Source: Candidatus Nanopelagicaceae bacterium (GTDB taxonomy: Bacteria; Actinomycetota; Actinomycetes; Nanopelagicales; Nanopelagicaceae). From it: a stretch of DNA of 64,000 nucleotides. Of the stretch, positions 62,621 through 63,971 are shown one piece after another. The notes under the pieces were generated by a model, which was not told the DNA's origin, did not search any database, and was given only the letters and a program-made list of their open reading frames with translations. How positions within the stretch are numbered: the stretch's first letter is position 1; every line of letters starts with the position of its first letter. Location: the NCBI GenBank assembly GCA_018883365.1, contig VEQF01000002.1, forward strand, positions 1-64,000. Direction: 5' to 3'. The position numbers and the translations under genes are program-made.

Positions 62621-62923
62621 TTACGCAGTAAAGAAACGTTGTTGACGTTGTGCCTTACTGATGATGTCCAAACGTTCCTCTTCAGTTAATCCGCCCCAGA
62701 TGCCATATGGCTCCTGAGCGGCAAGCGCATGTGCTCGACATGCTGCGATCACTGGACAGGTTGCGCACACTGCCTTAGCGGCGTTCTCACGAGCTTTGCG
62801 GCGGGGGCCACGCTCGCCATCTGGATGGAAGAACATCTCAGTTGGGAGGGATCGGCAAGCACCCTCATACTGCCATTCCCAATTTGAAGCTACCGGCTTT
62901 GGAAGACGCGATGTTTCAGACAT
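62621..62923 (-). CDS. WhiB-family iron-sulfur regulator
   Basis: 100 residues starting MSETSRLPKP. Four cysteines that bind a [4Fe-4S] cluster: Cys23, Cys53, Cys56, Cys62; the GIWGG turn follows and then a basic tail. I prefer the ATG at 62921-62923 over the one at 62945-62947, because TATGGT lies exactly six bases before it and TTGAAC 17 bases further up. WhiB proteins are restricted to actinobacteria and bind the main sigma factor. Confidence 0.93.
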   Translation of the reverse strand: MSETSRLPKPVASNWEWQYEGACRSLPTEMFFHPDGERGPRRKARENAAKAVCATCPVIAACRAHALAAQEPYGIWGGLTEEERLDIISKAQRQQRFFTA

Positions 62924-62929
62924 GGGTGA

Positions 62930-62958
62930 ACCATACAATCGCGCCATAGGTTGTTCAA
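62930..62958 (-). promoter_or_regulatory. Promoter of whiB (leaderless)
   Basis: Minus strand: TTGAAC (62953-62958), 17 bases, TATGGT (62930-62935), six bases, ATG. An interrupted palindrome TCAAG-TAC-CTTGA (62955-62967) overlaps the -35. Confidence 0.75.
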
Positions 62959-63044
62959 GTACCTTGACCGCATAAAACCCTGAGAAAGTGCTCAGAGACC
63001 CATTTCAAGTCGCGCACACCACAATCTGGACGCACTATTGGCCA

Positions 63045-63971
63045 GTGGCCGACAAAAGCAACACCTCCCCAGTAACAGCCCCCATCACAGAGGCGCTTAC
63101 TGTCGCGGCCGTTGCCAGAAGACTTGGAGTAGCCCCCGCCACATTGCGAACCTGGGATCGACGCTATGGGCTTGGTCCATCTGAGCACAGCACCGGAGAA
63201 CATCGCCGTTACAACATTAATGATTTAGCTCGCTTAACTTTGATGCGTAAGTTAGTAATTGCTGGAGTTTCTCCCGCCGAAGCTGCACAACGTGCGCTGG
63301 CTTTTGATGGCGAAACCTCTCCAGAGTTGATTTCAAGTTCACTTTCAAAAGATGTAGCGGTTCGCGAAGAGTTAGTTGAAACTTTGATTCGCGCAGCACG
63401 CGCATATGATCGTAATTTTATTGAAGAGTTGCTGCGGTCAGAATTGTCGGCCCGCGGAATTTCAAATACCTGGAACGAAGTAATCGTTCCATTACTAATA
63501 ATGATTGGCGATGAGTGGGCGGAATCAGGAACCGGAATTGAAACCGAACATTTGGTAAGTGAAATTGTTAAACGTCTGTTGCAGGAGGAAAATAAATCTG
63601 TTGCAAATCCAGTTAATGCTAGACCAGTTCTTTTGGCTTGCATTGGTGAGGAGATGCACTCCTTAGCTCTATACGCACTCGGTGCCTGTCTTTCAGAGCG
63701 CAATATTGCAATTCAGTTTTTAGGAGCACGAACACCGATTGAGGCAATCAGTGCAGTTGTTAAGCGTTCTGCGCCTCCGGCAATTTTCTTGTGGGCGCAA
63801 CTTGGAAAAAATGGTGATCCTGCAGTGCTTGGCGAATTGCCAAGTATTAGACCTGCACCTCGAATTATTTTAGGTGGACCTGGTTGGAAGCTCTCCGATA
63901 AAAAGACTGCGGTCCATGTTGATGACTTGATGGAGGCGGTAGAAGAGATTACGCGGGCGGCCGGAGCTTAA
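63045..63971 (+). CDS. MerR-family regulator with cobalamin-binding-like domains (CarH/LitR-like)
   Basis: 308 residues from the GTG at 63045; an upstream in-frame ATG at 62988 adds 19 unlikely residues. N-terminal MerR helix-turn-helix (LTVAAVARRLGVAPATLRTWDRRYGL, 18-43). A helical middle domain carries W158-x9-E168-H169, the motif of adenosylcobalamin photoreceptors. The C-terminal B12-fold shows GEEMHSLA (His205) and GGPGW; the usual ExxHxxG glycine is replaced. It probably regulates in response to light or B12. CACTAT lies six bases before the start. Confidence 0.8.
   Translation: MADKSNTSPVTAPITEALTVAAVARRLGVAPATLRTWDRRYGLGPSEHSTGEHRRYNINDLARLTLMRKLVIAGVSPAEAAQRALAFDGETSPELISSSLSKDVAVREELVETLIRAARAYDRNFIEELLRSELSARGISNTWNEVIVPLLIMIGDEWAESGTGIETEHLVSEIVKRLLQEENKSVANPVNARPVLLACIGEEMHSLALYALGACLSERNIAIQFLGARTPIEAISAVVKRSAPPAIFLWAQLGKNGDPAVLGELPSIRPAPRIILGGPGWKLSDKKTAVHVDDLMEAVEEITRAAGA

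Follow-up and report, generated by a model that had tools for sequence, protein, structure and literature searches.

What does a CarH-like regulator sense, and which promoters does it control, when its gene stands back to back with whiB in a Nanopelagicaceae bacterium with a genome of 1.25 Mb? The preliminary description of the window (the whole 64,000-nucleotide stretch that was analysed) proposed a CarH/LitR-like photoreceptor directed at carotenoid or rhodopsin genes. The gene and the domains of its product are:

63045-63971, + strand: CarH-like regulator gene, 308 aa
residues 19-82: MerR DNA-binding domain
residues 155-169: four-helix subdomain with GxxW-x9-EH
His205, GxxxP 227-231, Trp250, GG 277-278: B12-type Rossmann domain

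The MerR and B12-type C-terminal domains of the preliminary description were borne out by Pfam matches to MerR_1 (54.9 bits), B12-binding_2 (34.2) and B12-binding, the last scoring 31.9 on the protein (just below the cut-off of 32.1) and 33.8 when the genome was searched. In favour of the GTG start at 63045, orthologs have an ATG at the equivalent aligned position. The closest solved structure, both by sequence (E 1e-18) and by fold, is T. thermophilus CarH, and the AlphaFold model (pLDDT 82) gives a TM of ~0.8 across the CarH sensor domain.

The gene diverges from whiB across a shared region of 121 bases, as had been described (~120). The best solved relative of the whiB product is M. tuberculosis WhiB3 (E 7e-32, compared with 6e-12 for WhiB1), which makes WhiB3 the nearest among solved Wbl proteins. 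The features of this side of the locus are:

62621-62923, - strand: whiB, WhiB3/WhiD type, start ATG 62923-62921
62930-62958, - strand: whiB core promoter, -35 TTGAAC 62958-62953, 17-bp spacer, -10 TATGGT 62935-62930
62936-62959, + strand: 24-bp conserved block CAATCGCGCCATAGGTTGTTCAAG, the predicted operator, spanning the whiB -35 and the entire spacer to the -10
63003-63010, + strand: second conserved element TTTCAAGT, always 42 nt ahead of the start codon of the CarH-like gene (Nanopelagicales)

The order groEL (groEL1) - whiB (divergent) - CarH-like gene - guaB - guaB3 is common to Nanopelagicales and numerous further families of the class; larger genomes have additional sequence between the CarH-like gene and guaB. 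This shared order points to vertical inheritance, and by this comparison the CarH-like gene is an old vertical ortholog, not a recent acquisition. Three close relatives (G024, G040 and G027) lack both the whiB ortholog and the CarH-like gene and have other genes after groEL; their best whiB match reaches only ~40%, and the G024 and G040 assemblies are single-contig and 99-100% complete. In G040 and G024 the stretch from groEL to guaB3 contains a different ORF of ~253 aa (L283, L284), with guaB missing from its usual position. The guaB gene itself (IMP dehydrogenase; L005:6006-7130, just downstream of the window) encodes merely 374 aa, and its NCBIfam matches suggest a mid-model gap, as loss of the CBS regulatory module would produce. 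Of the 148 genomes of the class, 85 gave a family match, which in some was only to canonical-type or partial copies. Orthologs are present in many actinobacteria without rhodopsin, and among 35 Nanopelagicales-family genomes (completeness at least 85%) gene presence showed no association with rhodopsin (Fisher p 1.0) or crtB (p 0.17).

The whiB core promoter, read from the sequence and conserved in orthologs, is so placed that whiB would be nearly leaderless. Over its -35 and spacer the intergenic alignment shows the block as CAATCGCGCCATARGTTGTTCAAG. Among 20 other genera having the whiB/CarH-like pair, a 24-mer matrix trained on Nanopelagicales only (match threshold p<=0.01) detected the block upstream of whiB in 15, and it detected none at eight whiB-type genes (identity of 50% or more) that have no CarH-like neighbour (Fisher 4e-4; Mann-Whitney 6e-7), p-values that serve as guides because the genera are partly dependent and the comparison was designed after the block had been seen. 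Within a single family, pair and block occur together in G065, and both the CarH-like gene and the block are missing from G085. Counting the simple motif TTGTnCA/TGnACAA gave 13/22 versus 1/8 (p 0.04), the trained 24-mer discriminating better.

The CarH operator consists of tandem 11-bp repeats nnnnTnnACAn with the core TnnACA (PMC9304148). The core TGAACA of the block agrees with it; TGnACAA occurs 14 times between the two genes class-wide against 1.0 expected (~13-fold), and one copy of the repeat core TGAACAA is conserved. Regular tandem repeats are generally absent, two cores in tandem at 11 bp being seen at only one of 13 class loci and at none of 29 Nanopelagicales loci, and an Rfam search of the whiB region returned no credible match. 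The element TTTCAAGT contains TTCAAG, as does the 24-bp block, and may mark the CarH-like gene's own promoter or autoregulation. Overall, the CarH-like protein probably binds the 24-bp block and so likely controls whiB and itself, whiB being the best-supported target.

Of the proposed targets, rhodopsin gained support from an operator search and the carotenoid genes did not: a 15-bp core, CRTRRGTTGTTCAAG, occurs at the rhodopsin promoter and is conserved there in the genus, but the carotenoid cluster promoters carry no operator core, and two one-mismatch sites nearby sit inside other genes. In the 1.25-Mb genome the 15-mer, which was designed after a shared 11-mer had already been seen and takes its degenerate letters from whiB sites, has two exact matches (0.02 expected), at the whiB/CarH-like locus and at the rhodopsin promoter; one-mismatch sites of CRTRRGTTGTTCAAG are absent genome-wide and two-mismatch sites equal the control. 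The rhodopsin site (G000:C18:8637-8651) is in the stretch that separates rhodopsin from glutamate racemase (murI), ~180 bp ahead of the rhodopsin start, and is a candidate for rhodopsin, murI, or both. It shares mainly the TTGAACAAC half of the block. The conserved leader is on the rhodopsin side, and a clear -10 at the usual spacing is lacking. Within the genus the element keeps its position; five genomes carry it unchanged and others the variants GTTGTTCAACC and GGTAATTCAAG; at the rhodopsin promoters of other genera sites were weak or absent and not significant, which confines the rhodopsin site to the genus. Since the same core stands at its promoter, the rhodopsin pump was probably added to the regulator's targets in this Nanopelagicales genus, on weaker support than that for whiB. 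The rhodopsin mRNA leader (L145:7460-7660 in G000:C18, and L147-L166) also contains the stretches CCGAGGCTTCATATGGG... and GCCCACGGAGGC, conserved in the genus, which could form a structured element, although Rfam gave no credible match on this leader. A further conserved element of the GGGCAAAACGGACAT type lies between rhodopsin and murI (L145:7705-7725 and genus relatives).

Whether the protein could sense light through B12 depends on its sensor residues. CarH is defined by Wx9EH in the four-helix subdomain (PMC8156234, PMC9304148) together with the B12 motif D/ExHx2G/P-x41-SxT/V-x22-27-GG (PMC9304148). Trp158, nine residues and Glu168-His169 form an intact Wx9EH, present in 61/61 Nanopelagicales orthologs checked and far above chance; the preliminary description had the ORF, its coordinates and this motif right. 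Among 23 diverse family members Gly155, Glu168, His169, His205 (the expected cobalt ligand), Gly227 and Pro231 are invariant and Trp158 is conserved in at least 90%, which indicates that adenosyl-facing and cobalt-ligating residues are still constrained. The signature of AdoCbl light-responsive domains (SignatureFinder; CtMerR, photocobilins) comprises GxxW, EH, GxxH and GxxxP (PMC11796333), three of which are present here, GxxH reading GxxxH. Ala159 follows Trp158 at the place of His132, the light-state ligand in T. thermophilus CarH.

The altered glycine reported for ExHxxG was confirmed (ExHxxA, Glu203-Met-His205-Ser-Leu-Ala208). A second change had been overlooked: Trp250-Ala-Gln252 replaces SxT/V, placing Trp250 exactly at the motif serine. 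In B12 domains this serine normally contacts the nucleotide tail. The spacings x41 and x24 fit the CarH definition and GG 277-278 is retained; residues 208 (Ala) and 250 (Trp) do not match the motif as defined in PMC9304148. A scripted pattern found Trp at the serine position in 60/61 Nanopelagicales orthologs, the remaining one also reading FLWSS, and the 60 orthologs of this order that the script parsed have either Ala or Pro at residue 208. Beyond Nanopelagicales most orthologs show Pro there, a residue permitted by the CarH motif, and Trp at position 250; thus the altered glycine is minor and Trp250 is the real difference. Among whiB-linked copies retaining the sensor residues, only His or Tyr are found as exceptions to Trp250.

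Two natural variants were observed. The genus g21 (small genomes; L044, L045, L195, L196, L198, L200, L202) has Phe for Trp158 with the whiB pair retained, which makes it a natural experiment on whether the Trp is needed. Two CarH-like genes adjoining whiB in other actinobacteria (L054 and L231, the latter with an uncertain alignment) are natural sensor-loss variants: neither Wx9EH nor the cobalt-ligand His remains in them, and the promoter block is missing as well.

In the tree a 99/97 branch splits the family from T. thermophilus CarH and six canonical-type copies. The canonical-type copies, some of them in the same genomes, have Ser, Val, Gly or Met at position 250; G068 carries both kinds (L053 canonical-type, L036 a member of the present family). 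All 23 members scanned match the NCBIfam CarH model NF052513, and the present protein scores 101 bits, below the cut-off of 400. Because of the changed B12 motif (Ala208, Trp250) and the separate clade we call it CarH-like rather than a defined CarH, and the lack of the motif serine and the score below the model cut-off lead us to file it as a variant. Of the CarH/LitR-like identity proposed earlier, the architecture and the conserved light signature stand, whereas agreement with the published CarH definition does not. As far as sequence tells, the protein works like CarH.

Trp250 is also what makes a B12-independent or other-ligand regulator the main rival. Such a CarA-like protein would repress or activate whiB with Trp250 plugging the tail pocket and the retained residues structural or binding heme or an incomplete corrinoid. 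The replacement of the motif serine by Trp in almost every member (as against Ser, Val, Gly or Met in canonical-type copies), the whiB-adjacent L054 and L231 without any sensor residues, and M. xanthus CarA, which represses without need of its B12 motif (PMC8156234), all agree with it. On the other hand, CarA has lost the Trp of Wx9EH (PMC9304148) that is kept here as Trp158; the strong constraint on Trp, EH and the cobalt-ligand His over great divergence would be difficult to account for if no corrin-like ligand were bound; and the two copies without sensor residues are also without the promoter block. We consider this rival unlikely.

The genome contains a PduO-type adenosyltransferase gene, so the cell is probably able to make adenosylcobalamin; its other B12-binding-domain protein, an open frame of 1183 aa, is probably MetH. 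In G017 the adenosyltransferase match (G017:C55:2743-3246) has one in-frame TAA, a sequencing error or decay. The adenosyltransferase, the probable MetH and the orthologs in many non-rhodopsin actinobacteria would suit a sensor of B12 supply with no light role, in which AdoCbl as corepressor reports cobalamin status to whiB. We judge this quite improbable: the EH/GxxW/GxxxP light signature is retained, AdoCbl is inherently photolabile so that light would interfere, and one conserved target candidate is a rhodopsin. Least probable of all is that the block, which does span the -35 and spacer exactly and shares chiefly its TTGAACAAC half with rhodopsin, is merely a strong sigma-70-type whiB promoter (-35 TTGAAC) or another regulator's site while the CarH-like protein acts elsewhere, since its spacer bases are kept class-wide although promoters need no such conservation and it is missing at whiB-type genes without a CarH-like neighbour, including G085 of the same family as G065.

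The reading we prefer, tentatively and at slightly less than an even chance, is a CarH-like factor paired with whiB since early Actinomycetia that binds the 24-bp block over the whiB promoter under the control of AdoCbl and light, with rhodopsin added in the genus. The pairing, the joint absence, the block with its dependence on the regulator gene, and the conservation of sensor residues are shown by genome comparison. From there we infer AdoCbl as the ligand, repression in the dark, release by light, and rhodopsin as a target. In the dark, 5'-deoxyadenosylcobalamin would be held between Trp158/Glu168-His169 on the upper, adenosyl side and His205 as the lower cobalt ligand, and the oligomerised protein would cover the -35/-10 region; blue or green light would break the cobalt-carbon bond and release the promoters, which would remain open without B12. 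Trp250 and Ala208 imply a nucleotide tail placed differently from that in known CarH. Trp250, Ala208, Ala159, GxxxH, the Phe of g21, the scarcity of tandem repeats and the genus-limited rhodopsin site count against this reading, and conservation at the -35 could partly reflect the promoter itself. An ancient Actinomycetia-wide AdoCbl light-to-redox switch, with an aromatic-filled tail pocket and control of WhiB3/WhiD, to which freshwater Nanopelagicales added rhodopsin, is possible but more doubtful.

If this is right, redox regulators of the WhiB3/WhiD type would come under B12/light control in many actinobacteria, a control not described in the open-licence literature searched, and abundant freshwater bacteria would gain a named candidate regulator for their rhodopsin gene. 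In light-responsive freshwater actinobacteria (Rhodoluna, Aurantimicrobium) the light sensor was reported as not identified (PMC8591293). For experiments the analysis offers an exactly placed 24-bp site, a 15-bp core with just two copies in the genome, and individual residues to test.

Among known systems, the WhiB3/WhiD redox regulators are the type of the divergent whiB neighbour; the open-licence literature searched describes no CarH-like partner for them and no whiB-paired CarH-like variant, and held nothing useful on Rv3415c/whiB3 or a whiB-linked MerR gene. The AdoCbl domains defined by SignatureFinder have GxxW, EH, GxxxP and the ligand His in common with the CarH-like protein, in which the Gly of GxxH is one residue farther (PMC11796333). 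CarA of Myxococcus xanthus has the same architecture and regulates its promoter by covering the -35, but lacks the Trp of Wx9EH that is kept here. CarH (T. thermophilus, PDB 5C8D/E/F, the best sequence and fold match; Bacillus megaterium; Myxococcus xanthus; the LitR group) shares the MerR domain, the Wx9EH four-helix cap, the B12 Rossmann domain with its His ligand, the GG and the TnnACA core of the predicted operator. The present protein differs from it in having Trp250 for the motif Ser, Ala/Pro for Gly and no His after the Trp, and its family, without regular tandem 11-bp repeats, forms a separate clade that is paired with whiB rather than with crt genes.
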